The position numbers were made by a program, and so were the translations under genes. Below, one piece after another: positions 3 through 16,919 of a DNA stretch of 62,668 bases (its first letter is position 1; each line of letters starts with the position of its first letter). Below the pieces are notes generated by a model. It was not told the origin of the DNA and searched no databases. It saw nothing but the letters and a program-made list of their open reading frames with translations. Origin of the DNA: Flavobacteriales bacterium (GTDB lineage: Bacteria; Bacteroidota; Bacteroidia; Flavobacteriales_C; GCA-002722245); NCBI GenBank assembly GCA_023251075.1, contig JAHEZM010000019.1:1-62668 (forward strand), written 5' to 3'.

Positions 3-2879
3 ATTTTTGAAGACGATGTTGATATTTACTGGGCGCGAACAAGGATAGCCGAACGTTTGAATTACGCCCAACGATTATTACCAAAAGAAGTAGTTCCTTC
101 TATCGGCCCCGATGGAACGGGAGTGGGACATGTTTTTTGGTACACGTTGGAGGCAAAAAAAATGGACTTGGGTGAACAGCGAGCCTTGCAGGATTGGTAT
201 GTGAAATTTGCTTTGCAGAATGTGCAGGGCGTAAGTGAAGTAGCTTCTTTTGGTGGTTTTGAAAAACAATATCAGATTACCATCGACCCCAACAAATTGA
301 ATTATTATAATGTTTCATTGATGGATGTTCTCAAATCGGTTCGTACCAACAATAATGATGTTGGTGGAAGAAAATTTGAGATGAGTCAAATGGGGTATAT
401 TATAAGAGGGTTGGGCTATGTTAAAAATAGCTCGGATATTGAAAACATTTCAGTTGTTACAAGAAATTCAATCCCTGTAAAAATAAAAGACGTTGCCACT
501 GTTCAGATGGGTGGAGATTTACGTCTTGGAATATTTGACAACAATGGCGAAGGAGAAGTTGTAGGTGGAATTGTAGTAATGCGCTACGGTGAGAATGCCG
601 ATAAAGTAATTAATGCAGTAAAAGAAAAAATTAAAGATGTTGAAAAAGGTTTGCCTGAAGGCGTAAAAATTAAAACATCATACGACAGAAGTACTCTTAT
701 TGAAGAAGCCATTGAATCTGTAAAGGGAACGCTTATAGAAGAAATGATAACAGTTTCAATTGTAGTATTGTTATTTCTTTTTCACTGGCGAAGTGCATTA
801 ATAATATTAATTCAATTGCCAATTTCTGTAGCAACAGGTTTTATTTTATTACAGGCCTTTGGTATTTCCTCTAATATTATGTCTTTAACGGGGATTGCCC
901 TTGCCATAGGAGTTGTGGTAGATGATGGAATTGTGATGGTAGAGAATGCTTATCGGCACTTATCGGAAAAATGGACTGGCCACAAAGTAGATAAAGCAGA
1001 ACGATTGAAAATTATTGAAGAATCATCTCAACAGGTTGGTCCTGGAGTTTTCTTTTCCACTATTGTAGTAATTGCTTCTTTCTTGCCTGTTTTTTTACTT
1101 ACAGGAATGGAGGGTAAATTGTTTTCTCCTTTGGCTTGGACAAAAACATTTATTCTACTTGTAGATGCTGTACTTGCGATTACACTGGCTCCTGTTTTAA
1201 TTTCATTTTTTCTGAAAGGAAAACTGAAACCGGAAAGCGAAAATCCAATCACAAGAGTTCTCGAAAAAATTTACACCCCTATTCTTTCATGGTGTTTAAA
1301 ATGGAGAAAAACAACTATAGGGATTAATTTAATAGCACTGGCGATAAGTATTCCTGTAATGCTTGATTTAGGAAAAGAATTTATGCCACCATTGGATGAA
1401 GGTTCTTTATTGTTTATGCCAGTGACACTTCCCGATGTTTCTAATGCTGAGGCAAAACGGATTTTACAATTACAGGATAAAATCATAAAATCAGTTCCTG
1501 AAGTAGAAAGTGTTTTGGGTAAGGCAGGTAGAGCAAATACCGCTACCGACAATTCTCCTATCAGTATGATAGAGACTATTGTTTTATTAAAACCAAAATC
1601 GGAATGGCGAGAGGGATTGACAAAAAATGATATTATTAATGAGCTTAACTCGAAACTACAGATACCGGGTGTAGTGAATGGATTTACTCAACCCATTATT
1701 AACCGTATCAATATGCTTTCTACGGGAATAAGAACCGATGTAGGAATAAAGGTGTATGGTCAGCAAATAGACAGCATTTACAAGTTAGCCGAAAAAATAA
1801 AAAAGGAACTTATAAGTGTTGACGGAGTGAAAGATTTATATGTTGAACCTATTACGGGAGGAAAATACATTGACATTAATATTAACCGCGATGAAATTGG
1901 GCGTTACGGTTTAAGTATTGACGACGTAAATATGGTGGTAGAAAGCGCATTGGGTGGTATGAATATTACTACCACAGTGGAAGGCCGCCAACGCTTTAAA
2001 GTGAATGCCCGCTATGCTCAGGATTTTAGAAATGATATTAATAAACTGAAACGTTTACAGATTCAAACGGATGATTACGGAACCATACCACTATCCTCAG
2101 TAGCAGATGTGGCTATTTCAGAAGGGCCACCAATGATTAATTCTGAAAATGCCATGCTACGAGGCACGGTGCTGTTCAATGTGAGAGAACGTGACTTAGG
2201 AAGCACAGTTGATGATGCGAAGAAAAAACTGGAAGGTATGCTGAAAAAATTACCGAAAGGTTACTACATAGAATGGAGTGGTCAATACGAAAATCAAATT
2301 AGAGCCAATGAAACTTTACTGATGATTGTACCTGTTGTTATCCTTATTATTTTACTGGTTTTGTATTTTACTTACAAATCGGTGAAAGAAGCGTTAATCA
2401 CTATGATTACTGTTCCTTTTGCACTTATTGGTGGAGTATTCATGGTGTACTTTTACGATGTGAATTTATCGGTAGCTGTTGCGGTAGGTTTTATAGCGTT
2501 ATTTGGAATTGCTATTGAAACCGCAATGTTAATGACGATTTATTTGAATGAAGCCATGCAACAACTCGTTGCTGCAAAAGGCAATTCAAAAGAAAGTATT
2601 ACCAATGCCGACATTAGAGAATTTGTTATTGCCGGCGCAGCAAAACGGTTACGACCAAAATTAATGACAGTTTCCGTTTCATTGTTTGGGCTTATTCCGA
2701 TACTATGGGCAAACGGAGTGGGCAGCGATGTGATGCTTCCTATCACCATTCCTTTGATTGGCGGAATGATTACCTCTACTATTTATGTGCTTTTTGTAAC
2801 ACCTGTAGTTTTTGAAATAAGCAAAGAAGCAGAACTTAAGCGCAATGGAAAAATTGATTTAATTGATGCAAAAGAATAA
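3..2879 (+). CDS. cusA: CusA-type Cu(I)/Ag(I) efflux RND transporter (5' partial)
   Basis: Inner-membrane proton-driven RND pump of a tripartite copper/silver exporter. The reading frame is open to the left edge, so the true start and about 90-100 N-terminal residues lie outside the window; 958 residues are visible against about 1045 in the family. The frame opens with IFEDDVDIYWAR, a typical porter-domain motif of heavy-metal RND pumps. The three methionines that line the metal path in E. coli CusA are all present: in NMLSTG (codon 1713), in LGGMN (codon 1959) and in GPPMIN (codon 2133). The proton-relay segment VVVDDGIVMVENA is in transmembrane helix 4, and the second membrane block with a MIGGMITS segment is intact near the C-terminus. 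The next gene overlaps the end by 14 bases, so the operon order is A-C-B-B'. Methionine conservation argues for Cu/Ag rather than Zn/Co/Ni (CzcA) substrates. Confidence 0.93.
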   Translation: MFEDDVDIYWARTRIAERLNYAQRLLPKEVVPSIGPDGTGVGHVFWYTLEAKKMDLGEQRALQDWYVKFALQNVQGVSEVASFGGFEKQYQITIDPNKLNYYNVSLMDVLKSVRTNNNDVGGRKFEMSQMGYIIRGLGYVKNSSDIENISVVTRNSIPVKIKDVATVQMGGDLRLGIFDNNGEGEVVGGIVVMRYGENADKVINAVKEKIKDVEKGLPEGVKIKTSYDRSTLIEEAIESVKGTLIEEMITVSIVVLLFLFHWRSALIILIQLPISVATGFILLQAFGISSNIMSLTGIALAIGVVVDDGIVMVENAYRHLSEKWTGHKVDKAERLKIIEESSQQVGPGVFFSTIVVIASFLPVFLLTGMEGKLFSPLAWTKTFILLVDAVLAITLAPVLISFFLKGKLKPESENPITRVLEKIYTPILSWCLKWRKTTIGINLIALAISIPVMLDLGKEFMPPLDEGSLLFMPVTLPDVSNAEAKRILQLQDKIIKSVPEVESVLGKAGRANTATDNSPISMIETIVLLKPKSEWREGLTKNDIINELNSKLQIPGVVNGFTQPIINRINMLSTGIRTDVGIKVYGQQIDSIYKLAEKIKKELISVDGVKDLYVEPITGGKYIDININRDEIGRYGLSIDDVNMVVESALGGMNITTTVEGRQRFKVNARYAQDFRNDINKLKRLQIQTDDYGTIPLSSVADVAISEGPPMINSENAMLRGTVLFNVRERDLGSTVDDAKKKLEGMLKKLPKGYYIEWSGQYENQIRANETLLMIVPVVILIILLVLYFTYKSVKEALITMITVPFALIGGVFMVYFYDVNLSVAVAVGFIALFGIAIETAMLMTIYLNEAMQQLVAAKGNSKESITNADIREFVIAGAAKRLRPKLMTVSVSLFGLIPILWANGVGSDVMLPITIPLIGGMITSTIYVLFVTPVVFEISKEAELKRNGKIDLIDAKE

Positions 2880-4143
2880 GAAAATGGTAAAAAATAAATT
2901 ATTATCAGCGATACTAATGCTATTATTTTTTAATGTTAGTTGCGCACAAATTTTGACGCTCGACAGTGTTTTAAATATTATCGAGAGGGATAATCCCGAA
3001 TTAAAAATGTACGATGCTCAAATAAATGCCGCAGACACTTATGCAGAAGGTGCAACGGCATGGGATGCGCCACAAATAGGTACGGGTTTCTTTATGACAC
3101 CATACAATCCTATGATGTGGAAAGCTAATCCATCAGCATATAATTCGGGTATGGGATCATATATGTTATCTATAAAACAAATGATCCCCAATCCGCAAAA
3201 ACTGGAGGCCAACAAAACGTATATGGAAAGCATGAGCAGTGTTGAAAAACAAAATAAAAACTTTGTTAGAAATATGCTTTTTGCCGAAGCCAAAGGAAAT
3301 TATAATGAACTGGTGGTTTTAAAGAAAAAACAAGAGATTGTAAAAGAATCTGAGAATTTATTAAAACTGGTAATACAAACAACAGAAATCAGATATCAAT
3401 ACAATCAGGAAAAAATAGGAAGTATTTATAAAGCAAAAGCACAGCTCGCAGAACTTCAATCCATGCTGTTGATGTATGAAAATGAAATAAAGGAAAAGAT
3501 GATTATGCTAAATACGCTTATGAATAGAGAGAAATCGAAATCTTTTCAAATAGACAGCACCTATTTTATAAAACAATATGACACTGAAATTATTGATACT
3601 TCCTCACTTTCTTTTTTAAGGAGTGATTTGAAAGCCATTGACCAATCTATTAATTTACTGAAGGCAAAACAACAAATGGCAAAAAGTGAAAGATTACCTG
3701 ATTTTGGAGTAAGCTATGACCACATGTTTACTTTTGGAACACAACCACAATTGTTCACTTTAATGGGAATGATGACTATACCGATAGCTCCGTGGTCGAG
3801 TAAAAGTTATACCTCTACTGTTTCAGCAATAGACTTTGAGATAGATGCTTTAGAAATTCAAAAACAAGGTGTTGTTAATGAAGCGGTGGGGAAATTGGAG
3901 GGATTAAAAAGTAAAATTGGTTTTCAAAAGCAGCAAATAAAATTGTATGAAGAAAGTATTTTACCATCGCTGCGAAAAAACTATCAGGCTTTACTGCTTT
4001 CATACGAACAAAACACAGAAGAATTATTTATGGTGCTGGATGCCATTCAAATGCTTAAAATGAATCAACTGGCTTACCTCGATCAATTACAGACGCTTTT
4101 AACATTACAAACTGAATATGAAAAAGAAATTGAACAACGATAG
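2866..4143 (+). CDS. TolC/CusC-family outer-membrane efflux channel
   Basis: Outer-membrane factor that should complete the tripartite metal exporter with CusA and the adaptors. It has 425 residues from the ATG at 2866, and the ATG at 2884 is an equally good start. The longest frame begins at a TTG (2863) that I do not favour. A signal peptide ends near FFNVSCAQ; the Cys there lacks a leucine at -3, so normal signal peptidase cleavage is more likely than lipidation. The rest is mostly helical with long coiled-coil stretches (about residues 100-230 and 330-420), as expected for the TolC periplasmic barrel. The start overlaps cusA by 14 bases and the end overlaps the first adaptor by 26 bases, so the genes are translationally coupled. 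Met-rich patches such as LMGMMTIP are compatible with copper handling. Confidence 0.88.
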   Translation: MQKNKKMVKNKLLSAILMLLFFNVSCAQILTLDSVLNIIERDNPELKMYDAQINAADTYAEGATAWDAPQIGTGFFMTPYNPMMWKANPSAYNSGMGSYMLSIKQMIPNPQKLEANKTYMESMSSVEKQNKNFVRNMLFAEAKGNYNELVVLKKKQEIVKESENLLKLVIQTTEIRYQYNQEKIGSIYKAKAQLAELQSMLLMYENEIKEKMIMLNTLMNREKSKSFQIDSTYFIKQYDTEIIDTSSLSFLRSDLKAIDQSINLLKAKQQMAKSERLPDFGVSYDHMFTFGTQPQLFTLMGMMTIPIAPWSSKSYTSTVSAIDFEIDALEIQKQGVVNEAVGKLEGLKSKIGFQKQQIKLYEESILPSLRKNYQALLLSYEQNTEELFMVLDAIQMLKMNQLAYLDQLQTLLTLQTEYEKEIEQR

Positions 4144-5383
4144 AAGCTATTTTTTTTATTTGATTTTGCTCGTAATCACTTTGGTGTCGTGTTCAGAATC
4201 AAAAAGTGAAAACCATGTTGAGGTAATGCATAAAAAAATGTACACCTGCTCAATGCATCCTCAGATTATAAGAGATACACCCGGAAAATGTCCGATTTGT
4301 GGAATGGACTTGATAGAAAAAAAATCAGATAATAAAGTACAGTTAGATGTTGGAATAGATGATTTGATTAAACCTGTTGATGCTTATGTACTGTCTTCTG
4401 TAAAAACAAGTTCCCCTATTGAAAAGGAAGTTTCAGTTATTTTTAAAGTAAATGGTTTTATTTCTTACGATACCCGACAATTTTCTACTATCTCTTCGCG
4501 CTATGAAGGTCGAATAGAAAAACTTTATGTAAAATATAATTTTCAAAAAGTAGAAAAAGGTCAGGCGCTTTTTGAGATGTATAGTCCTGAATTAATTACT
4601 GCTCAACAAAATTTAATTTTCCTATTGAAAAATGATGAAACCAATACAGCATTAATTGAAAGTGCGAAACGCAGATTGAGTTTATTGGGCATGACAAAAA
4701 CTCAAACAGAGCAACTTGCTTCCACAAAGCAAACGATGATTACTACTACAGTTTATAGTCCTGTTGATGGATATGTGATAGAAGAAAAAATATCTTCACA
4801 AATGGAAAGCAATAAAAATTCGATGGGTGCTGAAAATTCTAAAACAGATTATTCCACCCAAGAATTATCAGTTAAAGAAGGACAAACCTTATCGAAGGAA
4901 CAACGCATATTCAAAATTGTAAATACACAGATGGTTTGGGCACTTCTAAAATTATCGGGTGCTCAAGCTGAGTATGTAAAGAAAAATGATGTTGTTAAAA
5001 TATTTAGTCAAAGTATTTCCGAACCAATTATCTCCCCTGTTGATTTTGTAGAACCGATGTTTGAAGGTGCTGAGAAGTATTTGACAGTACACGTTCATTT
5101 ACATAACACTGATGGAAGATGGAAAGTAGGCGACCTAATAACTGCTGAAATTAATGGGGGGCAAAAAAAATCACTTTGGATTAATAAAGAAAGTGTTCTG
5201 AATCTTGGAAATGAATCAGTGGTATTTGTGAAAGAAGGAAATAACTTTTTTAAAGTGAGAAAAATTGCTCTTGGAATTAAAGTAAATAACTGGATTGAAG
5301 TTTTAGATGGAATTTCTAGTAAAGATAGTATCGCTGAAAACGCACAGTATTTAATCGATAGCGAGAATTTTGTTAAACAGTAA
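4118..5383 (+). CDS. cusB: CusB-type periplasmic adaptor, lipoprotein, with heavy-metal binding head (first copy)
   Basis: Membrane-fusion adaptor linking CusA to the outer-membrane channel. It has 421 residues. The N-terminus is a lipoprotein signal (LVITLVSC). A small heavy-metal binding domain follows at about residues 40-70, reading YTCSMHPQ, then a spacer, then CPICGMDL, with all the usual Cys, His and Met ligands. The central part has the barrel-sandwich and helical hairpin of RND adaptors (for example SRYEGRIEKLYV and YSPELITAQQNL), and the C-terminal part has the beta-barrel and membrane-proximal domains. The ATG at 4118 lies 26 bases inside the upstream channel gene. The stop is three bases from the start of a second, related adaptor. 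No separate CusF chaperone gene is visible, so this head may do that job (inference). Confidence 0.9.
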   Translation: MKKKLNNDRSYFFYLILLVITLVSCSESKSENHVEVMHKKMYTCSMHPQIIRDTPGKCPICGMDLIEKKSDNKVQLDVGIDDLIKPVDAYVLSSVKTSSPIEKEVSVIFKVNGFISYDTRQFSTISSRYEGRIEKLYVKYNFQKVEKGQALFEMYSPELITAQQNLIFLLKNDETNTALIESAKRRLSLLGMTKTQTEQLASTKQTMITTTVYSPVDGYVIEEKISSQMESNKNSMGAENSKTDYSTQELSVKEGQTLSKEQRIFKIVNTQMVWALLKLSGAQAEYVKKNDVVKIFSQSISEPIISPVDFVEPMFEGAEKYLTVHVHLHNTDGRWKVGDLITAEINGGQKKSLWINKESVLNLGNESVVFVKEGNNFFKVRKIALGIKVNNWIEVLDGISSKDSIAENAQYLIDSENFVKQ

Positions 5384-5386
5384 ATT

Positions 5387-6589
5387 ATGAAAAGAAAGAT
5401 AAATAATATTTTGATACTATCCTTAGCGGTTATACTGCTGCTGAGTTGTAATTCAAAAGTAGAAACCCCTACCACTGATAATTCTTACTATACCTGTTCA
5501 ATGGATCCACAAGTTAGGGAAAGCAAACCCGTAAAATGCCCAATTTGTAGAATGGAACTCACAAAAGTTGAAGTAAGTAAAGAAAACTCAAACTCATTGA
5601 AATTTAGCGACAATCAAATGAAGCTCGCCAATATAAAAATAGATACTCTCAAGCTATCAGATTTTTCTCAAGAACAAACATTTACAGCTAAAGTGGTTGT
5701 GGATGAAGAAGAATCTTCTGTAATTTCTACCCGTGTTATGGGACGTGTTGACAGACTTAATTTTAAAAGTATGGGAGAATACGTCCACAAAGGTGATGTT
5801 GTATATGAATTATATAGCGAAGAATTATCCTCCGCGCAAAGAGAATATTTGATTGCTTTAGAGAGAGCCAAGAAAATCAACGATACAGAAATGGATTATA
5901 AGCAATTATTGTCTTCGGCAAAAAGCAAGTTACTTCTTTGGGGGATGAGCGAAGAGCAAATTAAACAGCTTGGATTGTCAGGAGAAGTTTCGGCAACAAC
6001 ATCATTTACAAGTAAAGTAGAAGGATATATCACAGAAGTAATGATAAAAGAAGGAGATTATTTAATGGAAGGGCAAACAATACTAAAAACCAATACCTTT
6101 TTGAACGTTTGGATAGAAGCACAGGTATTTGCTACCGAAATACCCCCAATAAAAATAGGGCAAGAAGTTTTTATAACATTTGAAGGACAAGGATTGGAAG
6201 CACAAAAAAGTAAAATCAATTTTATCAGTCCTGAACTAATCAAACAAAGCAAAGTGAATATTATAAGAACACCATTGCGTAATGATAACCATAAATATTT
6301 CCCAGGAATGTTAGCATCAATAACAATTAATGTTTCTCAAAAAAAGGCTATGGTTTTACCCTTGGATGCTGTATTGCAGGAAGCAAAAGGAAATACAGTG
6401 TGGATTCAAAATGCGGATGGCTCATTTGAAAATAGGATGGTAAACATCGGTTCTCAAAATAGCAAGCAAATAGAAATTCTTTCAGGGATAAAAGTTGGTG
6501 AAAAAGTTGTTACTTCGGGAGCCTTTTTGATTAATAGTGAATATAGATTGAAGAAAGGAAGTGATCCAATGGAGGGAATGAAGATGTAA
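5387..6589 (+). CDS. CusB-type periplasmic adaptor, lipoprotein (second copy, altered metal-binding head)
   Basis: Second RND adaptor in tandem, 400 residues. It has a lipoprotein signal (VILLLSC) and the same domain order as its neighbour: metal-binding head, lipoyl/barrel-sandwich, hairpin, beta-barrel, membrane-proximal domain. The head keeps the YTCSM and CPIC cysteines and methionines, but His in CSMHP has become Asp (CSMDP) and Gly-Met in CPICGM has become Arg-Met (CPICRM), so its metal site is probably changed. The protein ends in a short methionine-rich tail (MEGMKM). The two adaptors are clearly diverged, which suggests an old duplication and possibly a heteromeric adaptor ring (inference). 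The start is three bases after the first adaptor's stop, and a terminator follows at 6769. Confidence 0.88.
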   Translation: MKRKINNILILSLAVILLLSCNSKVETPTTDNSYYTCSMDPQVRESKPVKCPICRMELTKVEVSKENSNSLKFSDNQMKLANIKIDTLKLSDFSQEQTFTAKVVVDEEESSVISTRVMGRVDRLNFKSMGEYVHKGDVVYELYSEELSSAQREYLIALERAKKINDTEMDYKQLLSSAKSKLLLWGMSEEQIKQLGLSGEVSATTSFTSKVEGYITEVMIKEGDYLMEGQTILKTNTFLNVWIEAQVFATEIPPIKIGQEVFITFEGQGLEAQKSKINFISPELIKQSKVNIIRTPLRNDNHKYFPGMLASITINVSQKKAMVLPLDAVLQEAKGNTVWIQNADGSFENRMVNIGSQNSKQIEILSGIKVGEKVVTSGAFLINSEYRLKKGSDPMEGMKM

Positions 6590-6890
6590 TGATAGGCTGT
6601 TAATGGTTAAGTAAATGTAATGAATTTACACAGGCTAAAAACCTTGTTGGAAAAAGCATGACAGAGGAAAATCAGTCAAAATCAAATAGATTAAAATGAA
6701 ATCGTTGAAATCTTTTCAAAAACAGTTTGTAATTGGTTCGACCAATTTCGGCTTAGTTCCACCAACGCGGCATACTTGATATTTTAACTCAGGTATGCCT
6801 TTTTTCTTTCCTTCTAAAAGCTTTAATTGTCAAGCGATATAAGAGAACACTGGTTCAATATCATCGGTTCGACACTCATCAGAACTCTTG
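6590..6890. other. Non-coding gap between efflux operon and PLD gene
   Basis: About 300 bases between two convergent genes. I see no supported ORF. It holds a short perfect hairpin at 6731-6747 (AATTGGT, loop TCG, ACCAATT) and the stronger terminator hairpin at 6769. A minus-strand reading gives stop-interrupted peptide fragments but nothing I can assign to a family. Confidence 0.5.
6769..6805 (+). terminator. Rho-independent terminator of the cus operon
   Basis: GGCATACTTGA pairs with TCAGGTATGCC around a nine-base loop (11 bp with one G-T pair) and is followed by six T residues on the plus strand. It lies 180 bases after the second adaptor and points away from it. Confidence 0.75.
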
Positions 6891-8420
6891 TTATAATATA
6901 CTCTTCGGAACTACTCTTCTTGTTTTAACTTTCAACCTTTTGTAAATGCCCGATACAGAATCGGGATTCATTGTGTTGGTGGTTTGCCAGGCATTTTCCG
7001 ATTTAAAATCTTCTAACATATTTGCTTTTAATTTTCTCCCAATTTCTTTAGAGTAAATAATAGCAAAGCATTCGGTGTTGAGATTTAAACTTCGTGGATC
7101 AAAATTAAAGGTGCCAATAACAGAGACAGAATCATCAATCAACATGGTTTTAGCATGCAATCCAAAAATAGGATAGTTCGTTGAATCTTTTTGCAACTCA
7201 CCGGTAAGTAATTTTTTGCGTACTGCTGCATCGGGTTTGAATTCATAAATTTTTACTCCGGTGGCCAATAGTTCTTCACGATCACGTTGGTATCCACTAA
7301 AAGCTTCCAGGTTATCGGTAGAGGCCATACTATTGGTTAGTATTTTTATTTCTACACCTCTCTTCACCAAATCGTGTAAGATTTTTCTGCTTTCGTCTGT
7401 GGTGATTAAATAAGGTGATTCAATAATAATTGATTTTTTAGCCTTCAAAATTAAACTCAATAAAGTATCGCTACATAGTCCACCACCATCCAATTCTCCA
7501 TCGCTTTTATTTTTCCCTGGTTCGTCGGATACAAATTGAATATTGTCTAACCAAATGAGTTCTTTTGATTCTTGAATTTTTTGAAAGCTCAAGGGAATAT
7601 CTTTAATTCTATCGCGTACCTGAGGCCAGAAATTTTCAGGATTACAGGCATATTGGTGTAAAAATTCATATTTTTCTTTGGCATTCAACTCGTCAAATAC
7701 ATGAACAATTTCATCAATATCCACACTCAATTTACTACTCCAAAATATTTCGAAAGATTTATTTACCTGTTCACTCACTTTCCCTAATAGAAGGACATCT
7801 CTGTCTCTGAAATTGTATTCGTGATCGTAATTAAAATATTCATCGGCGATATTTCTTCCTCCTGTAATCACTACTTTTCCATCTACAATAAAGGTTTTGT
7901 TGTGCATGCGTTGATTGAATCCTTTAAAATCTTTTGTCATGTTGTACAACTTGCTCACGAGATTTTTGCCAATATTGGCAGTGGGATTGTAAATTTTTAT
8001 TTCCAGATTTGGATGTGCATCTAAAGCCAATAATTCCTCCGCTTCTGCTTCTACCATAATATCATCTACAATGATCCTAACTTTCACTCCGCGATCTGCA
8101 GCACGCAAAAGAAAATCGGTAGCAATTAATCCTACATTATCGGCAGAAAAAATAAAATATTGAATATCAATTGTTTTTTCAGCGTATTCGCTAAGCCATG
8201 CTCTGCTTATCATTGCAGCGTCTCCTTCTTCTAAAAGATAAACACCGGTTTTGCTTTTCATTAACTCGCTAACGGGAGTTAATTGTTGAGATAAAGTAAC
8301 ATTGCTATCGCGATATTCTTTATCGCAGAAATAATTTGAATTAGCTTCATCATCAGAAAAACAAGAAAGAGAAAATTGCGCAATAGTTAAAATAACACAA
8401 GCAAATAAAATCTTTTTCAT
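6891..8420 (-). CDS. Phospholipase D-family lipoprotein (cardiolipin synthase-like)
   Basis: Member of the phospholipase D superfamily with two catalytic HxKxxxxD motifs: HNKTFIVD (residues 173-180) and HAKTMLID (422-429), each followed by the usual small-residue/Asn stretch (GGRN; GTFNFDPRS). The length of 509 residues and the layout resemble the cardiolipin synthase ClsC/YmdC group, which transfers phosphatidyl groups between phospholipids. A signal peptide with lipobox FSLSC gives a lipid-anchored protein outside the cytoplasm, unlike ClsA, which has membrane helices. The first frame codon is GTG; the ATG directly after it (8420) is the better start. It is the last gene of a minus-strand operon, six bases after the P450. 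Substrate is not determined by sequence: it could be a phospholipid transferase or a nuclease, but the partner genes favour lipid. Confidence 0.85.
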   Translation of the reverse strand: MKKILFACVILTIAQFSLSCFSDDEANSNYFCDKEYRDSNVTLSQQLTPVSELMKSKTGVYLLEEGDAAMISRAWLSEYAEKTIDIQYFIFSADNVGLIATDFLLRAADRGVKVRIIVDDIMVEAEAEELLALDAHPNLEIKIYNPTANIGKNLVSKLYNMTKDFKGFNQRMHNKTFIVDGKVVITGGRNIADEYFNYDHEYNFRDRDVLLLGKVSEQVNKSFEIFWSSKLSVDIDEIVHVFDELNAKEKYEFLHQYACNPENFWPQVRDRIKDIPLSFQKIQESKELIWLDNIQFVSDEPGKNKSDGELDGGGLCSDTLLSLILKAKKSIIIESPYLITTDESRKILHDLVKRGVEIKILTNSMASTDNLEAFSGYQRDREELLATGVKIYEFKPDAAVRKKLLTGELQKDSTNYPIFGLHAKTMLIDDSVSVIGTFNFDPRSLNLNTECFAIIYSKEIGRKLKANMLEDFKSENAWQTTNTMNPDSVSGIYKRLKVKTRRVVPKSIL

Positions 8421-8426
8421 CACTAA

Positions 8427-9806
8427 TTATTTTATTGAAGTTAATTTCATCATCAAAGGCTTTTGAGGTTTAATGATTACATCAGCATTGATAACAGGTT
8501 CTTTTTTGGCTATCAATTCAAATTTGAAATATTGAAGTAGTAGAGGAAAAATAATTTGTAATTCGGCCATAGCCAAAGGTTTTCCAACACAGGCTCTCTT
8601 TCCTTGTCCGAAAGGAATATACACAAAAGCTTTTCCTTTCATGTTTTCAGGTAAGAAGCGTTCGGGATTAAATAGTTCTGGTTGATCCCAAAATTCAGGA
8701 TGACGATGCAAAGCATAAATACAAATCATCACCAATGAATCTTTGGGAAAATGATAACCATTAATTTCATCGTTTTGATGACTCAAACGCAGTAAAGACC
8801 AAACGGGAGGATACAAACGCATGGCTTCCTGAATAAACATTTTGGTGTGAGGCATTTCCGAAATGTTTTCCATTTCGGGAACTTTGTTTTGTAGCACTTG
8901 ATCGATTTCATGTTTGATTTGATTCGACCAAAAACCATTTTTTGCATAGCAGTACAGCGACCAGGTTAAAGCCGATGCCGTGGTGTCAAATCCAGCAAAA
9001 ATAAAATTCATGATTTCATCACGCACTTGCTTATCAGAAATTAATCCATCTTCTTTTGCTTTTTCTAAAGTTTGTAAGGCCAAGCCTACCGATTCAGGGT
9101 TTTCAATAGCCGTTGCTCTAATATTTGCCACAATATTTTCCAAAGATTGAAGTGCTTCTTTTATAGGAGCATCAGAAATTTTCTTCATTAAAAATAGCTT
9201 TCTGATTTTGTCTTTAGCCATTTTAATATTTTGATCTTTGTAGCTGGAGTTTTTCAAAATGAGTCGCAGGCAACGAATGATTTCGCGGTAATCTACTTTT
9301 ATAGCAGATGATAATTGTGTTTTTAATAAGATGCGAAGCATTAAAATATTTACATCAAATTCAACATCGCAGGCTATATTTTTTTTTGAATTGGATTTCC
9401 ATTCTTCAATTAAAACTTTAGTTTCTTCACTGATGACATGAAAATAATCTTTTACAAATTTATCGTGAAAGGTTGGTTTTAGTAAAAGGTGTTGTTGCTC
9501 CCAGAGTTTGCCCTCACTGGCAAATAAACCATCACCTAAAAAATCGTGTAAAGGGAGCATCACCCGTTTTCTGGAATAATTCTCTTGATTGGTTTTAAGA
9601 ATATGCTGAATATAATCGGGATGATTTACGATAATCAACCCTTTGTCATTCGATAATTTGAAGTTTACTACATCGCCATTTTTAGCCAATAATTTAACGA
9701 TAGTTTTTAGAGGATTTTTGTACAGAGAAGGAAGCCATTTCAAGAAATCCAATTGATTGAGAACAGGGATTTTTCTAGCTATTGATTTTTCTTCTCTTTT
9801 TTCCAT
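8427..9806 (-). CDS. Cytochrome P450
   Basis: Heme-thiolate monooxygenase, 459 residues from the ATG at 9806. The longer frame starts at a TTG inside the upstream gene. All core marks are present: I-helix AGFDTT (271-276), K-helix EAMR (327-330), the PERF motif, and the heme loop FGQGKRACVG with the Cys ligand at 406. The C-helix motif that is normally WxxxR reads WEQQH, so the usual heme-propionate Arg is His. There is no N-terminal membrane anchor and no fused reductase, so separate ferredoxin/flavodoxin partners are needed; none lies in this window. The overall pattern resembles fatty-acid hydroxylase-type P450s (CYP102/CYP4-like), but the substrate is unknown. It sits one base after the acyltransferase and six bases before the PLD gene. 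Confidence 0.92.
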   Translation of the reverse strand: MEKREEKSIARKIPVLNQLDFLKWLPSLYKNPLKTIVKLLAKNGDVVNFKLSNDKGLIIVNHPDYIQHILKTNQENYSRKRVMLPLHDFLGDGLFASEGKLWEQQHLLLKPTFHDKFVKDYFHVISEETKVLIEEWKSNSKKNIACDVEFDVNILMLRILLKTQLSSAIKVDYREIIRCLRLILKNSSYKDQNIKMAKDKIRKLFLMKKISDAPIKEALQSLENIVANIRATAIENPESVGLALQTLEKAKEDGLISDKQVRDEIMNFIFAGFDTTASALTWSLYCYAKNGFWSNQIKHEIDQVLQNKVPEMENISEMPHTKMFIQEAMRLYPPVWSLLRLSHQNDEINGYHFPKDSLVMICIYALHRHPEFWDQPELFNPERFLPENMKGKAFVYIPFGQGKRACVGKPLAMAELQIIFPLLLQYFKFELIAKKEPVINADVIIKPQKPLMMKLTSIK

Positions 9807-9807
9807 T

Positions 9808-10575
9808 TTAAATCTGATCAATCAATGTGGCAATGTTTTGTTTGAGTCGGGAAATAAATCTTGCTTGTTGTGCACCATCTACAATAGAATGATCAACACT
9901 TAAAGTCAAGCAAATAAATTCTTTTTCTGTGGTGGTGTTGTTTTCAAAAACAGGTTTTTTTTCAATGGTTCCCACAAACAAACCAATGGTTTGCATCGGA
10001 ATAGGAATTCCCCATAATTGTCCTTTTGAAAACATGCCTCCTGCACTGAAATAAGCGGTACCAAAGAATAGTTTTCTTTTTAAAGGGCGTTTCATCCAAT
10101 ACTTATAAAATAGTATTCTTAAAAAAGAAGGGAAGGTCATGAAAGTTTTTTGTTTGGAATCGATCTTTATTTTTTCTTCCTTTTTAGCGCTTATAATATT
10201 TTGTTCCAATTCTAAAGCCTTCAATTGGTTTGCCGATCGTACGATGTGTGGTTTAACTGTTTTATTTTCCAGTTCGATAGGGAAGAACACATCTACTTCA
10301 TTGAAAGTATAAACTTTATTGTTCCAGCTTTTGCAAGCTTGTACCTGTTTTGTTTCGTTGATAGTGCTTACGAAACAATGCAAAAGATAAGCACTCAACG
10401 AAAGATTTATTTTTTTGCTGTTTCTCAGCTCTTTTATTTTACTGCGTACCTCTGTGATATCTGCATCAAAAATACCATGAATGAAAGGAATAGTTTGCCC
10501 TATGCGATTGGCATCTTCTACCAGCTTTCGCTCCAGCGTAAAAGGTTGTACACTATATTCATTGTTGCTTTTCAT
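9808..10575 (-). CDS. Freestanding 2-oxoacid dehydrogenase E2-type acyltransferase domain protein
   Basis: A protein of 255 residues that is essentially a lone catalytic domain of the dihydrolipoamide acyltransferase/chloramphenicol acetyltransferase fold. The active-site signature SVDHSIVDG is near residues 225-233, with the catalytic His and Asp-Gly of the E2 type (DHxxxDG). There is no lipoyl domain and no E1/E3-binding domain, so it is not a normal E2 subunit. Such stand-alone domains presumably move an acyl group from CoA or another carrier to an unidentified acceptor. It is the first gene of an operon with a P450 and a PLD-type protein, so a role in modifying a lipid or small acyl product is reasonable (inference). 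Chloramphenicol resistance is unlikely because the motif is DHxxxDG rather than HHxxxDG. Confidence 0.8.
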   Translation of the reverse strand: MKSNNEYSVQPFTLERKLVEDANRIGQTIPFIHGIFDADITEVRSKIKELRNSKKINLSLSAYLLHCFVSTINETKQVQACKSWNNKVYTFNEVDVFFPIELENKTVKPHIVRSANQLKALELEQNIISAKKEEKIKIDSKQKTFMTFPSFLRILFYKYWMKRPLKRKLFFGTAYFSAGGMFSKGQLWGIPIPMQTIGLFVGTIEKKPVFENNTTTEKEFICLTLSVDHSIVDGAQQARFISRLKQNIATLIDQI

Positions 10576-10686
10576 CCTGTGGATTTAAAGTAAGTAGTAA
10601 ATATAATAAGAAATTGCGGAGGGGTAGATTCTGTAGTTTTGGACAAATGGTTTTATTTCTTGATTTTTAGCCTACATTCACCTTTT

Positions 10687-11250
10687 ATGGAATATTTAGA
10701 ACGAAATTTCGCAAAAGAAGATTATTCAGGTAAGGATTTATCGGGCAATGTTTACGACAATTGTGAATTTACCAATTGTAATTTTTTTGAAGCCAATTTA
10801 CGTGAAGTTGATTTTATTGAATGCACCTTTATAGATTGCAATTTCAGTGGAGTAAAGCTGAATGAAACCGGTTTGAAAGATGTGTCGTTTGTAGCTTGTA
10901 AATTATTGGGTTTCGATTTTACCCGTTGTAAAGATTTTTTACTCTCTTTCGTTTTCGAAAAATGTATTTTGGATTATTCAGTAATGCAGAAAAAGAAAAT
11001 AAAGAAAACTATTTTTAAGGATTGTTCGATCAAGGAAGTTGATTTTTCTGAATCTGATTTGAGTGGCGCTGAATTTGTGAATTGCGATTTATCACGTTCT
11101 ATATTCCAACGTTGTATTTTGGAGAAAACAGATTTTAGAACTGCGCGTAATTTTTCTATCGATTTAGAAAAGAATAAAGTGCGTGGCGCAAAATTTTCCA
11201 GCGCTGGAATTGCAGGGTTATTGGATAAGTATCAATTAAATATTGAATAA
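10687..11250 (+). CDS. Pentapeptide-repeat protein
   Basis: A 187-residue protein made almost wholly of pentapeptide repeats (A/C/S/T)(D/N)(L/F)xx, for example CEFTNCNFFEANLREVDF and CSIKEVDFSESDLSGAEF, which form a right-handed quadrilateral beta helix. Length, lack of a signal peptide and the C-terminal ending KFSSAGIAGLLDKYQL recall the Qnr/MfpA group, which mimics DNA and protects gyrase, but the same fold occurs in many unrelated proteins. I favour the ATG at 10687; the longer frame starts at TTG 10639 and adds an unrelated hydrophobic stretch. It stands alone, divergent from the P450 operon and convergent with rlmB, with only six bases between their ends. Confidence 0.85.
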   Translation: MEYLERNFAKEDYSGKDLSGNVYDNCEFTNCNFFEANLREVDFIECTFIDCNFSGVKLNETGLKDVSFVACKLLGFDFTRCKDFLLSFVFEKCILDYSVMQKKKIKKTIFKDCSIKEVDFSESDLSGAEFVNCDLSRSIFQRCILEKTDFRTARNFSIDLEKNKVRGAKFSSAGIAGLLDKYQLNIE

Positions 11251-11256
11251 GCTTTT

Positions 11257-12009
11257 TTATAAAGCTCTTTGTCGCAAAACCTCATACACAATAATTCCAC
11301 AAGCTACAGAAACATTGAGTGATTCAATGGTTCCGTGCATGGGTAGTTTTACTGCAATATCAGAGTTGTTGATTATTTCACGAGAGATACCGGTTTCTTC
11401 CGATCCCATTACAATCGCCATTGGTCCGCTTAAATCTTTTTGATTGAAAATATGTTCTGTTTTTTCAGTACAGGAAACAATTTTTAATCCGCGATCTTTT
11501 AAAAACTGAACGGTTTCGGTGAGTATTTTTACTTTACAAATGGGAATAGTGAGTAAGGCTCCGGCACTTGTTTTTATAGCATCTTCTCCAATTTGAGCGG
11601 CTCCTTTTTTAGGAATAACAATAGCGTCAACTCCAGCACATTCAGCAGTTCTGCATATTGCACCAAAATTTCTAACATCGGTAATTTTATCGAGAACTAA
11701 AATGAAGGGGTCTTTTCCTTCACTAAATTTTTGTTCCAGGATATCATCCACATCATGAAATTCTACAGGAGATAAAAATGCAATAACACCCTGGTGATTT
11801 TTAGAAGTAATTCTATTGAGTTTGTCTTTGGGAACTTCGTTAAAGGAAATCACATTTTCGCGACAGAAATTTTTAATTTCTTTGAAATGATCCGCCACGA
11901 AATTTTCTAGTACCAAGACTTTGTCGAAAGTTTGTCCCGATTTTATGGCCTCCAACACCGGATGAATGCCAAATATCATTAAGTTTTTGTGTTTAAAAGA
12001 GTCTTCCAT
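11257..12009 (-). CDS. rlmB: 23S rRNA (guanosine-2'-O-) methyltransferase RlmB (SpoU/TrmH family)
   Basis: SPOUT-class RNA 2'-O-methyltransferase of 250 residues. The N-terminal substrate-binding part begins with IFGIHPVLEAIKSG. The three SpoU motifs follow: NFGAICRTAECAG (motif 1), IVMGSEETGIS (motif 2) and LPMHGTIESLNVSVACGI (motif 3), which form the knotted SAM site. RlmB methylates G2251 in the peptidyl-transferase centre. I start it at ATG 12009, which lies 17 bases inside the preceding GWxTD gene; the longer frame begins with TTG. It is the last gene of the minus-strand operon beginning at ung. A related member of the family (tRNA methyltransferase TrmH) is less likely given the N-terminal domain. 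Confidence 0.88.
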   Translation of the reverse strand: MEDSFKHKNLMIFGIHPVLEAIKSGQTFDKVLVLENFVADHFKEIKNFCRENVISFNEVPKDKLNRITSKNHQGVIAFLSPVEFHDVDDILEQKFSEGKDPFILVLDKITDVRNFGAICRTAECAGVDAIVIPKKGAAQIGEDAIKTSAGALLTIPICKVKILTETVQFLKDRGLKIVSCTEKTEHIFNQKDLSGPMAIVMGSEETGISREIINNSDIAVKLPMHGTIESLNVSVACGIIVYEVLRQRAL

Positions 12010-13243
12010 CGCGCCAGGCTTCAATCATTTTGAACCATGAATTTTTAAATAAAGTACTTCGTTCCAAACTATAAGCATTAGAGGAGAAAGGGGTATCGAT
12101 TCTATAAAACATAAAGTCTTCACTCATCACGCTATTATCATCACCATAAACCCATCTTTCGCTATTGTCGCCTCTTAAAATATATTTTGGAGCACCGAAG
12201 ATAATGAAAATCATTCCTCTATCGGTACGCCATCCTTCGCGATAGGAGGAAAAGAATTTGTTGGCGAGCTCGGTACGTAAATAATATTGCTTGAGGTGTT
12301 CACTTGCATTTTCTTTACTACCGCAGCTTTCAATCCAAAATTTTTCTACCTCTTTTTTAATGTTTGTGGCTTCAGAAATATTTTTGAATTCCACAGAGGT
12401 ACATAAATACTGTAATGGAGCTACGAGTTGATTTTTCTTTACGATATAAGGATAAGTTTCATTAAAAGAAAAAACGGTATAACCTTCCTTACTGCTGGTA
12501 TCTGTTTGCATAAAATAAAATCCTCTGTTCCAAGGTGTGAAAGAGAAAGAACCTAAGCTGTCGCTGTACAAAAGAATTAATGAATCGGGATTTGAATTGA
12601 ATTTTTCGTTGGCTGATAAATCGTAGGGGGCAAGCGGTAATTTAAAATTACGGAAGTAAGCTTTTAAATAAATAGTATCATTTTTTAAATATTCATTTTG
12701 AATAAAAACAGGAACTCCGGTATCTACCACGAAAGTATTTTTCAGGGTGATATTATTTTGTGCGGCACTGAAATAATTTCTAGAGGAATTCATTGTTTTA
12801 AGAACTTCAGTGACGATTGAGAATTGGGAATTTCGTTGTAAATCTCTGGCAATGATTTCTAAAAAATATTTTTTCCCTTTAGGGGCAATGAATTTTATTT
12901 TGTGAATAAAAGCTGCGTTTGCATTTTCTTTATTGGATGCAAATTCAAAAGTAGTGCTATCTACAATTATTTCATCACTGTAACTACTGTAAACTCTGTA
13001 TGCTATTTCGTAGTGTGCTGAAAATATAGGATTGTCGGGAGTTTTAATGTATAGTAATTTGTTTTGATTGATTTGAAGAGTGAGTTCGGAAATAGAATCA
13101 TTGGTATTAAAAACGGCATAATCATTAATAAAATAATTGTCGTTCTCAGAAAAAGTAGAAGCTAAATTATCGAATGATTTTTGTGATGAACTACAAGAAA
13201 ATAAAGCGATACAAAGTATTGATATGTATAGTATAACTTTCAA
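11993..13243 (-). CDS. GWxTD domain lipoprotein
   Basis: Bacteroidota-specific family named for its Gly-Trp-x-Thr-Asp motif, seen here as REGWRTDRGMIFIIFGAP in the C-terminal third; function is not established. It has 416 residues and a lipoprotein signal (IALFSC at about residue 17). The middle region is beta-rich. The start codon is unusual: the gene before it (rmuC) ends with TAA and the very next codon, in the same frame, is the TTG that must begin this protein, since no ATG or GTG occurs before the lipobox. The two genes are therefore separated by nothing but a stop codon. The 3' end overlaps rlmB by 17 bases. Confidence 0.85.
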   Translation of the reverse strand: MKVILYISILCIALFSCSSSQKSFDNLASTFSENDNYFINDYAVFNTNDSISELTLQINQNKLLYIKTPDNPIFSAHYEIAYRVYSSYSDEIIVDSTTFEFASNKENANAAFIHKIKFIAPKGKKYFLEIIARDLQRNSQFSIVTEVLKTMNSSRNYFSAAQNNITLKNTFVVDTGVPVFIQNEYLKNDTIYLKAYFRNFKLPLAPYDLSANEKFNSNPDSLILLYSDSLGSFSFTPWNRGFYFMQTDTSSKEGYTVFSFNETYPYIVKKNQLVAPLQYLCTSVEFKNISEATNIKKEVEKFWIESCGSKENASEHLKQYYLRTELANKFFSSYREGWRTDRGMIFIIFGAPKYILRGDNSERWVYGDDNSVMSEDFMFYRIDTPFSSNAYSLERSTLFKNSWFKMIEAWRDGRLF

Positions 13244-14476
13244 TTATTCTAAAATATTTTTGTCGATTTGTTTGTTCGTTTTCGCACCCAATTCTTTCAG
13301 TTTTTCAATTTTACCGGCAATATTTCCATTGCCTGTAGATAACTTGGAAAGAGCATCGTTGTAGGCTTGCTGCGAACGCTCCATGTTTTTTCCTAAAGCT
13401 TTGAAATCTTCTACGAAGCCTGCAAATTTATCGTACAATTTTCCGGCTTCTTCAGCAATTTGAATTACATTTTTACTTTGTTTTTCTTGTTTCCAAAGTG
13501 ATGCGATGGTGCGTAATGTAGCGAGCAGGGTAGAAGGGCTCACCATTACAATATTTCTATCCCAACCGTAATTGAACAACTCCACATCTTCTTTGATTGC
13601 TACACTGAATGACGATTCAATAGGAATAAACATCAGTACAAAATCGGGTGCAGCTATTCCTAAAGCCGAAGGGTAATCTTTATCTCCTAATCGTTTAATG
13701 TGTGCTTTAACAGAGTTGATATGTTCTTTTAAAAAAGCTGCTCTTTTGCTGTCGTCTGTTTCAGAAACGTGAGCTTCATACGCTACCAATGAAACTTTAG
13801 AATCAATGATGATATGTTTTTCATCGGGTAAATTCACTACGAAATCGGGTTGTAGTTTATCTCCTTCGGCATTGTTCAAACTCACTTGCGCTCTGTATTC
13901 AATATCTTTAACCAATCCCGATTTCTCCAATACTTTTTCTAGAATCAATTCACCCCAATTTCCTTGTGTTTTAACGTCTCCTTTTAATGCTACGCTTAGG
14001 TTGTGAGCTTCTTCACTAATTTTTTTATTGAGATCTTTTAAGGAGTGCAATTCGTGTTTTAAAAATTCAGAAGTTTTAGTGTCTTCCTGAATTTTTTTGC
14101 GAACGGTTTCTTCGAAATCTTTTAATTTTTCTTTTAAAGGCTCCAGCATGAGATTGTTGGTGGTAGAGAATTCTTTAGAGTTTTCTTTTAAAATATCATT
14201 GGCAATTACTTTGAATTGATTTTTAAATTGCTCTTGTAAATTATTGATTTGTTCGGTGGTAGAACTTTCATTTTTTTTAGCATTTTCCAACTCAACCAGT
14301 GAACGGGTAAGTTCTTTTTCTTTGTTGTTGAGTTGTACTTGTTGCTGATCTAGTTTATTTTGAATGGCCTCCTTCTCCACTTGTAATTGAGCAAGAGCAG
14401 CACTTTTGTTTTTCACTAAAACAAAGGCGACAATGCTACCAATAAGAAGTCCGGTAATAAGGTAAAGAAATTCCAT
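13244..14476 (-). CDS. rmuC: DNA recombination protein RmuC
   Basis: RmuC-family protein of 410 residues. One N-terminal membrane helix (residues 2-20) is followed by a long coiled coil (about 25-100), then the RmuC domain with the conserved stretches GNWGELILEKVLEKSGL, QPDFVVNLPD and IIIDSKVSL, which has a restriction-endonuclease-like fold. In E. coli rmuC affects recombination of inverted repeats; its biochemical activity is not well defined. It lies 26 bases after the L,D-transpeptidase and abuts the GWxTD gene. Confidence 0.9.
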   Translation of the reverse strand: MEFLYLITGLLIGSIVAFVLVKNKSAALAQLQVEKEAIQNKLDQQQVQLNNKEKELTRSLVELENAKKNESSTTEQINNLQEQFKNQFKVIANDILKENSKEFSTTNNLMLEPLKEKLKDFEETVRKKIQEDTKTSEFLKHELHSLKDLNKKISEEAHNLSVALKGDVKTQGNWGELILEKVLEKSGLVKDIEYRAQVSLNNAEGDKLQPDFVVNLPDEKHIIIDSKVSLVAYEAHVSETDDSKRAAFLKEHINSVKAHIKRLGDKDYPSALGIAAPDFVLMFIPIESSFSVAIKEDVELFNYGWDRNIVMVSPSTLLATLRTIASLWKQEKQSKNVIQIAEEAGKLYDKFAGFVEDFKALGKNMERSQQAYNDALSKLSTGNGNIAGKIEKLKELGAKTNKQIDKNILE

Positions 14477-14502
14477 TGTTCTAAAATACGAAAGAGTTGC
14501 GA

Positions 14503-15120
14503 TTATTTAATTAAAACATACATTCCCAGTGTAGTTTTTCCATATAAATCAACTACGTCGTCGTTTTTCATTCTCACACAACCATGACTGGCAGGTTTGC
14601 CAATTAAGCCTTCTTCAGGAGTTCCATGTATGTATATTTTTCTTTGGTAAGAATCATTTCCTTGTCCGCGATTTTTACCATGTTCAACACCCATTAACCA
14701 TAAAATACGAGTGGTAACATCATCTTTTCCGGTGTCTTTAGGCGATTTTTCAATGCTGGCTAATTCGCCCGTATATTTTCCATTCACCAAAATTCCACCT
14801 ACGGGAACACCTCCTCCATTTTTATCTCTTACATAGTGCATTCCCAAAGGGGTTTTTAAACTGTTTTCACCATTTCCAATACCATATTTGGAAGTGGAAA
14901 TGGAATAACTCTTCACCAAAGAACTGTTTTTGTACAAGTATAATTTCTGATCACTTACCGAAATATAGATGAAATCATTTAGTTTTTTTGTTCCGTAATT
15001 GCTCGCACAGAGTTTTTTGAGTTCGTTCAAATTTGGATTTTGAAAAGAAGTGCAAAGAATTAAAAATGCAGCTACCAGCAACTGCACTAAACTTAGTTTT
15101 TTACGAAATAATCTCTTCAT
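14503..15120 (-). CDS. L,D-transpeptidase (YkuD domain), exported
   Basis: Cell-wall cross-linking enzyme of the YkuD family, 205 residues. The active site reads HGTPEEGLIGKPASHGCVRM: His165, His179 and the nucleophile Cys181, followed by a conserved Arg and Asn (RMKN). A hydrophobic segment at residues 10-26 serves as a signal peptide or anchor. The YkuD fold starts near residue 50 (YISVSDQKLYLYK). It acts in the periplasm on peptidoglycan stem peptides (3-3 links, or attachment of proteins). The ATG overlaps the last base of the upstream BamA/TamA-like gene's stop codon (TAATG), so translation is coupled. Confidence 0.9.
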   Translation of the reverse strand: MKRLFRKKLSLVQLLVAAFLILCTSFQNPNLNELKKLCASNYGTKKLNDFIYISVSDQKLYLYKNSSLVKSYSISTSKYGIGNGENSLKTPLGMHYVRDKNGGGVPVGGILVNGKYTGELASIEKSPKDTGKDDVTTRILWLMGVEHGKNRGQGNDSYQRKIYIHGTPEEGLIGKPASHGCVRMKNDDVVDLYGKTTLGMYVLIK

Positions 15121-16919
15121 TAAAATTGATTTAAAAATCCGAAATGTATTTTGGCAGCGCTAAAATCAACAGGATTTCCTAACTGACTACCTACTGCATA
15201 ATTCAAACTAAATATACCAGCTTTTGTTTCAAAACTCAAACCCGCACCAAATCCGTAAGGATGATCAATCACTCTTTCTATAAGGGTTATTTTTTCTGTA
15301 TAGGCATAATCTATAAATAAAGAAACAAAGCTATTTCGCTCTAATAACAATCGGTATTCCGCAGTACTAATAATATATTGAGAGGCAAAAATCGATGCAT
15401 CGGTAAATCCTCTCATTGATTTAATTCCTCCAATTCTGTACAAATCATTATTAAATAAATAAGGATTGGAGAGCATGCCCCCCTGAAGTCCCAACTTTAA
15501 TGTAGTGATTTTGAAAAAAGGGATATACATATTTGCTTTTCCATGAATGTTGTACAAAATAGAAGTTGCCGGAATTTGTAAGGTAACGGCAATATTATCG
15601 CTCCCTTTAATGGGAATATTAATCAATCCATTAGATCCTGTACCTCTAATTGTTTTATTTCCTGCCTGCGCACTCATGGTAAAATCGAATCCCTGGGTAG
15701 GGTTCAATCGATAATCTAACTTTTCATAATTAAATTCTAATCCGTAAGAGCTGGCATTGTTTTGAACATTGGTGGTGTTGGTAGTGTTTTGATTGTTTAC
15801 AGAAGTTCCTTTATTATTCCAAAATGCTTTTAAATAATTGTTCCCTTTTAATAAATAGCTCACTCCTAAACTGGTGTTGTAGTTGATGAAGGAGGTATCT
15901 TGTTTGAAAATATTAATAGCTCCACTCACGCCCACAGGCAGTGAAAAAAGGAAAGGGTAATTCATTTTTAAATCTAATTCCTGAGTTTGATTGGGTAATC
16001 CTCTCCACTTTAAATCGGCTACTTCGCCTTGTTTTAAAATGTTGGCTAAGTGCATGGTAATGTCGCCCGTAAAGGCCAAACTAGTTTGTTTGGTGGCTCC
16101 TGCGGTATTGGTGTTATTGGGTAAAACTCCCACCACACCATTGAAGGTACTGGCTTTTTTATTTTCTATAAATAAGTGAACAATCGCTCCTTGATCGGTG
16201 AGCGATAAGGCTGTTGGATTTTTAAGTGTAAGAAATGCTAGTTCCCGTAAACGATTGTCGATGTTGGCTATTATTTTTTCATTGTATATGTCCTTCACAT
16301 TAATTCCTAAATAATTGTGTAAATATTTTGCATTTATTTTTGAGTCACCATGAATCACAATGTCTTTGATTTTAATGACCGGACCTTCATTCATTTTTAA
16401 TTTAATATCTGTAAACCCATCTTTAAAATTGATTTCAGAGATGAATACTTTAGCGAAAGGATAGCCATTGTTTTCAGCATATTTAATGAGTGCCAACCCC
16501 GCTTCACTAATGAGCTTGTTGTTGAAAGGCATGTTTTTAAAATCCTTATCTCTAATGCCAACAGATCGGAGAAAGAGAGAATTGATTTCCGATAAATCAA
16601 CATTTTTTACCACATATTGAAATCCTAAATTGAAAGTAATTAACGCACTGTCGTTGCGGTAAACAACGCTATCGAAGGAGGCCGCTACATATCCTAAATC
16701 ATATAAATCAAGTAAAGATTTTTGCAAACTTTTATTGAGCTGATCTTTTGTTAAGTTTTTAGCGGGACTTATTTTTTTGAGAATATCTTTATTTAGGGAA
16801 TCGTTGCGAAATATTGCTTTATAGCTATTGTTTTGACTGAGGAGATTAAAGGAGAACGCAAAAAAGAAAAGACCAATGAAAGTCAATATTCTTTTTTGAT
16901 ATGATCTTTTTTTCATCAT
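15120..16919 (-). CDS. BamA/TamA-like outer-membrane protein (POTRA + surface antigen barrel)
   Basis: Omp85-superfamily protein of about 599 residues. It has an N-terminal signal peptide (ending near FNLLSQ), POTRA-like repeats at about residues 50-250, and a C-terminal beta-barrel of the bacterial surface antigen type. The barrel contains the lid-type motif [11 protein letters not shown], close to the VRGF/Y signature of Omp85 proteins, and ends in a terminal Phe. It is shorter than BamA (about 800), so a TamA-like or accessory assembly role is more likely. The longest frame begins with a TTG inside ung; the ATG at 16919 overlaps the ung stop codon as ATGA and starts the signal peptide properly. 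Its downstream partner is the L,D-transpeptidase. Confidence 0.85.

Follow-up and report, generated by a model that had tools for sequence, protein, structure and literature searches.

Gene layout of the window

The window analyzed here, 62,668 nucleotides long, is the whole of one contig (C29) of a 3.28 Mb genome (G000). On its minus strand, a gene for a free-standing acyltransferase of the E2/CAT fold is followed by a cytochrome P450 gene and then by a gene for a PLD-superfamily protein with a probable lipoprotein signal (Table 1). A single base (position 9807) separates the acyltransferase stop codon from the P450 gene, and six bases (8421-8426) lie between the P450 and PLD genes. The first-pass annotation had described three minus-strand ORFs with exactly these gaps, and the ORF coordinates together with the Pfam matches bear this out. 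Its reading of the individual products also held: a 255-residue lone acyltransferase domain containing SVDHSIVDG (Pfam 2-oxoacid_dh, PF00198, 61 bits; cut-off, 23), a complete P450 with the heme motifs AGFDTT (I-helix AGxDT), EAMR (ExxR), and FGQGKRACVG (FxxGxRxCxG) (Pfam p450, 290 bits), and a PLD-superfamily protein with two HKD motifs, HNKTFIVDGKVVITGGRN and HAKTMLIDDSVSVIGTFN (Pfam PLDc_2, 148 bits).

Several other features lie near these genes. By eye, an apparent heavy-metal efflux operon is present on the plus strand, with CusA/RND-like and TolC-like genes and two tandem adaptor genes whose products both begin with metal-binding-like N-termini (YTCSMHPQI and YTCSMDPQV). At a locus in another genome, a lone acyltransferase of another branch is found near CusB/CusA-like genes as well, a resemblance that is probably due to chance. 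A pentapeptide-repeat gene is divergent from the acyltransferase gene; the best NCBIfam matches of its product are Qnr/MfpA, at scores far under the cut-offs. The region 3' of the PLD gene contains an inverted repeat, GGCATACcTGA..TCAaGTATGCC, with no T run.

Table 1. Positions of the features discussed in the text.
Feature	Locus	Position	Strand	Length	Remarks
Heavy-metal efflux operon (apparent, by eye)	Window	3-6589	+		CusA/RND-like, TolC-like, two adaptors
Inverted repeat	Window	~6765-6800			3' of PLD gene
PLD-superfamily protein	Window	6891-8420	-	509 aa	Probable lipoprotein signal
Cytochrome P450	Window	8427-9806	-	459 aa	ATG start; second gene of pair
Free-standing E2/CAT-fold acyltransferase	Window	9808-10575	-	255 aa	First gene of pair
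Pentapeptide-repeat protein	Window	10639-11250	+		Divergent from acyltransferase gene
Lone acyltransferase near CusB/CusA-like genes	L062 (G174)	7928-16014			Another branch
OlsE-like/GH3 fusion	L034	9946-12495
OlsE-like/GH3 fusion	L035	9099-11645
OlsE-like/GH3 fusion	L105	9097-11670

The acyltransferase and P450 proteins

No lipoyl or subunit-binding domain was seen in the acyltransferase chain, which consists of the catalytic domain only, and the same genome encodes a separate E2 of 412 aa. On these two grounds, an ordinary E2 subunit was ruled out. In the DHSIVDG sequence, H229 and D233 correspond to the catalytic motif of 2-oxoacid dehydrogenase E2. H229 is invariant in both alignments, G234 is also invariant, and position 233 is either Asp or Asn. 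The presence of Asn here is compatible with activity, since His610 and Asn614 are the residues named for the catalytic mechanism of Azotobacter E2 in the title of entry 1dpb.

An AlphaFold2 model of the acyltransferase, built with eight sequences, had a mean pLDDT of 82.8, with low values at residues 181-191. Its best matches among solved structures were E2 cores (Z 17-19.5, ~190 residues, 2.7 A), followed by chloramphenicol acetyltransferases (CATs; Z 16.6), which align over residues 1-255. Thus, the protein resembles the E2 catalytic domain in its fold, its DHxxxDG motif, and its length, but it differs in its domain content, in sharing ~20% identity, in having a P450 as its partner, and in that no E1 or E3 genes adjoin it. 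With CAT it shares the fold over its entire length, the free-standing state, and the His/Asp motif; however, the identity is ~14%, and the NCBIfam CAT model scores 16.4 bits against a cut-off of 270.

The full-length alignment with CAT (Z 16.5) would fit a detoxification pair, in which CAT-like O-acetylation is combined with P450 oxidation of foreign compounds. Given how far the CAT score falls below its cut-off, and given that the neighbors of some relatives are genes for biosynthesis or lipids and not for resistance, we consider such a role improbable.

The nearest NCBIfam models to the P450 are terpenoid oxygenases, far under cut-off, and its best PDB sequence matches, which include CYP4B1, CYP3A, and BM3, are too distant to indicate what it acts on. 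Like the fatty-acid hydroxylating enzymes CYP102/BM3 and CYP4B1, it belongs to the P450 family and has all the heme motifs, but it lacks a fused reductase and its similarity to them is too low for substrate assignment.

The acyltransferase and P450 genes form a conserved unit

A search of the genome contigs for the P450 subfamily returned seven named loci (L147-L153) at 37-64% identity, and an E2-like gene lies directly upstream of the P450 gene in all seven. An eighth match (L154), whose P450 has 30% identity, has no E2-like gene upstream. When the acyltransferase alone was used as the query, the contig search gave no matches. In the pairs of this type, which we call clade A (those of the window, L147, L148, and L149-L153), the two genes are on the same strand and either overlap by up to 4 bases or lie at most 13 bases apart. 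One of these loci, L148, is the same contig as C27 of G004, a genome from the window's genus.

The P450 subfamily was present in 5 of 395 class genomes (G000, G004, G195, G292, and, more distantly, G134), and every one of the five also holds an E2-like gene. The two genes are adjacent in four of them; in G134, they are on different contigs, and both are divergent in sequence. The genomes behind these gene counts were sampled evenly; many are MAGs, and several loci from one family are not independent.

Because the genes flanking the clade-A pairs fall into about four unrelated sets (the window, G004, L147, and a group with asnS and rpoN), the pair is kept intact while its surroundings change. 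Neither the other window genes (before 22 kb) nor the L032 genes had a match in L147 or L149-L153. In the one family that comprises L149-L153, asnS, encoding asparagine--tRNA ligase, is directly upstream of the acyltransferase gene on the same strand, with an extra gene for a 225-aa protein in between at L151. We read the occurrence of asnS beside the pair in this family (L063, L064, L149-L153) as synteny of a housekeeping gene. We conclude that the acyltransferase and P450 genes are a conserved two-gene unit in several uncultured Bacteroidota, beyond close relatives. The unit is a module built from known families, and we found no relevant paper describing this combination of a P450 with an E2-fold acyltransferase in the literature searched.

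The PLD gene is a neighbor in one genome

The first-pass annotation had proposed that all three genes form an operon whose products act on one envelope lipid, through hydroxylation, acylation, and a PLD-catalyzed phosphatidyl transfer. The six-base gap and shared strand suggest that the PLD gene is probably co-transcribed with the pair in the window, and the PLD protein does score against cardiolipin synthases. With cardiolipin synthase-type proteins (TIGR04265, ClsB) it has in common the two HKD motifs and the PLDc_2 domains; it differs from them in being a probable lipoprotein and in its score, since, despite both motifs, it reaches 137 bits with TIGR04265, whose cut-off is 290.

The PLD protein has orthologues (52-74% identity) in 17 of 295 class genomes, counting that of the window. 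In the other 16, the neighboring genes are unrelated, and neither an E2-like nor a P450 gene occurs within ~1.5 kb or before the contig ends. In G003, which belongs to the same genus as the window, the orthologue, which is without the lipobox cysteine, is encoded downstream of an MBOAT gene, and the genome has no close P450 and no free-standing E2-like gene. All three genes are present in G195, but PLD is on a different contig from the pair. The G004 contig ends inside its P450 gene, and that genome holds no PLD orthologue. Conversely, none of the other pair loci examined has a PLD homologue.

From these orthologue neighborhoods and the lack of PLD at the other pair loci, it follows that the PLD gene is a neighbor in one genome and lies outside the conserved unit; the 16 neighborhoods rule it out as a member. 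Furthermore, the PLD protein is apparently exported, whereas by eye the acyltransferase and P450 have no signal sequence, which would place them in a different compartment from the PLD protein. Thus, of the proposed gene order, the acyltransferase/P450 adjacency recurs well beyond close relatives, but the three-gene unit with its phosphatidyl-transfer step does not stand, and we regard joint action of the three products on one lipid as highly improbable.

A second P450 pairing and its lipid context

P450-linked E2-like proteins fall into two separate groups, although the deep branches of the tree are weakly supported. In the P450 tree, a single clade of all the linked P450s was rejected (p-AU 7e-93). 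In five genomes with the second pairing, clade B (G002, G024, G219, G310, and G607), the P450 gene is followed by the E2-like gene, a gene for a fusion of a fatty-acid hydroxylase with GH3, and a gene for an enolase-superfamily enzyme. The G002 operon has an extra methyltransferase (LCM) in between, and in G118 the two genes stand alone, in the opposite order. Gene order differs within clade B as well as between clades A and B. For neither group of P450-linked E2-like proteins, nor for any close P450, was a tested function found in the literature searched.

More distant relatives of the acyltransferase adjoin membrane oxygenases that match Pfam FA_desaturase and are AlkB-like by motif, as judged by eye. 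Most simply, this would mean that such E2-like acyltransferases have repeatedly been teamed with oxygenases. Solo E2-like proteins also occur in other families (L062, L102-L111).

Both parts of the clade-B fusion resemble ornithine-lipid enzymes, the hydroxylase part OlsE and the GH3 part OlsH. The fusion is rare: besides G002 and three f16 genomes, it was found in 1 of 395 sampled phylum genomes. In planctomycetes, OlsH makes N-acyl ornithine and OlsI carries out the O-acyl step (PMC12493201). The clade-B relatives resemble this pathway in carrying the fusion beside the pair. Unlike the E2-fold enzyme, however, OlsI is an alpha/beta hydrolase, a P450 is not mentioned there (PMC12493201), and the window pair has no GH3 beside it. 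Because the fusion scores are under the curated OlsE and OlsH cut-offs, we treat an amino-lipid function for clade B as a lead suggested by sequence, not as membership in the pathway.

L147, in clade A, has an FA_desaturase gene 41 bases upstream of the pair, and at L154, a cyclopropane synthase gene follows the 30%-identical P450 gene. No GH3, desaturase, or hydroxylase gene lies beside the window pair. The GH3 genes of G000 are on other contigs (C21 and C42), and as potential partners they are uninformative, since same-genus genomes without the pair have GH3 too; FA_hydroxylase genes elsewhere were set aside on the same grounds.

Proposed reaction of the pair

Taken together, the desaturase at L147, the cyclopropane synthase at L154, the clade-B fusion, and the AlkB-like genes beside more distant relatives support a substrate that is fatty-acyl or of similar type. 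The idea of a modified lipid in the first-pass annotation is thus partly supported by the lipid genes at related loci, although its PLD step is not. From the folds of the two enzymes and their gene partners, we infer hydroxylation followed by O-acylation, with CoA as the probable donor and a lipid as the probable substrate. Most likely, the P450 would act in the cytoplasm, hydroxylating a fatty-acyl substrate or another hydrophobic one of similar kind. The acyltransferase would then move an acyl group from acyl-CoA onto the hydroxyl so formed and thereby yield an ester, for example an acyloxyacyl lipid. We assign this reading a probability of about 0.5.

The two steps might instead occur in reverse. 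The acyltransferase would first conjugate or activate a substrate (as an acyl ester or CoA thioester, for example). Oxidation of this acylated product by the P450 would follow, as part of a small secondary-metabolite route that is possibly terpenoid or amino-acid derived. The acyltransferase gene does come first in clade A, but gene order is no guide to reaction order. The terpenoid oxygenase models nearest the P450 and the GH3 and enolase-superfamily enzymes of clade B, which could handle small acids or dipeptides, are in keeping with such a route; however, no terpene synthase or peptide synthetase was recognized near the pair loci with scanned neighbors. We consider the reverse order rather unlikely.

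Returning to hydroxylation followed by acylation, a broader form would make the P450/E2-fold pair a portable module for these two steps that was assembled at least twice in Bacteroidota. Clade B, with its OlsE/GH3 fusion, would then represent one more way of making acyloxyacyl amino lipids, with the P450 supplying the hydroxyl and the E2-fold enzyme, rather than OlsA, OlsF, or OlsI, performing the O-acylation. This extension is speculative and, on balance, unlikely.

In textbooks, E2 catalytic domains appear as components of the pyruvate and 2-oxoglutarate dehydrogenase complexes. To our knowledge, the known amino-lipid pathways (OlsBA, OlsF, and OlsH/OlsI) do not account for all producers; should the product of the clade-B operon be an amino lipid, another route to that lipid class would be added. 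The link between a free-standing E2-fold enzyme and a P450, seen in two separate lineages, suggests recruitment of the fold for small-molecule or lipid tailoring.
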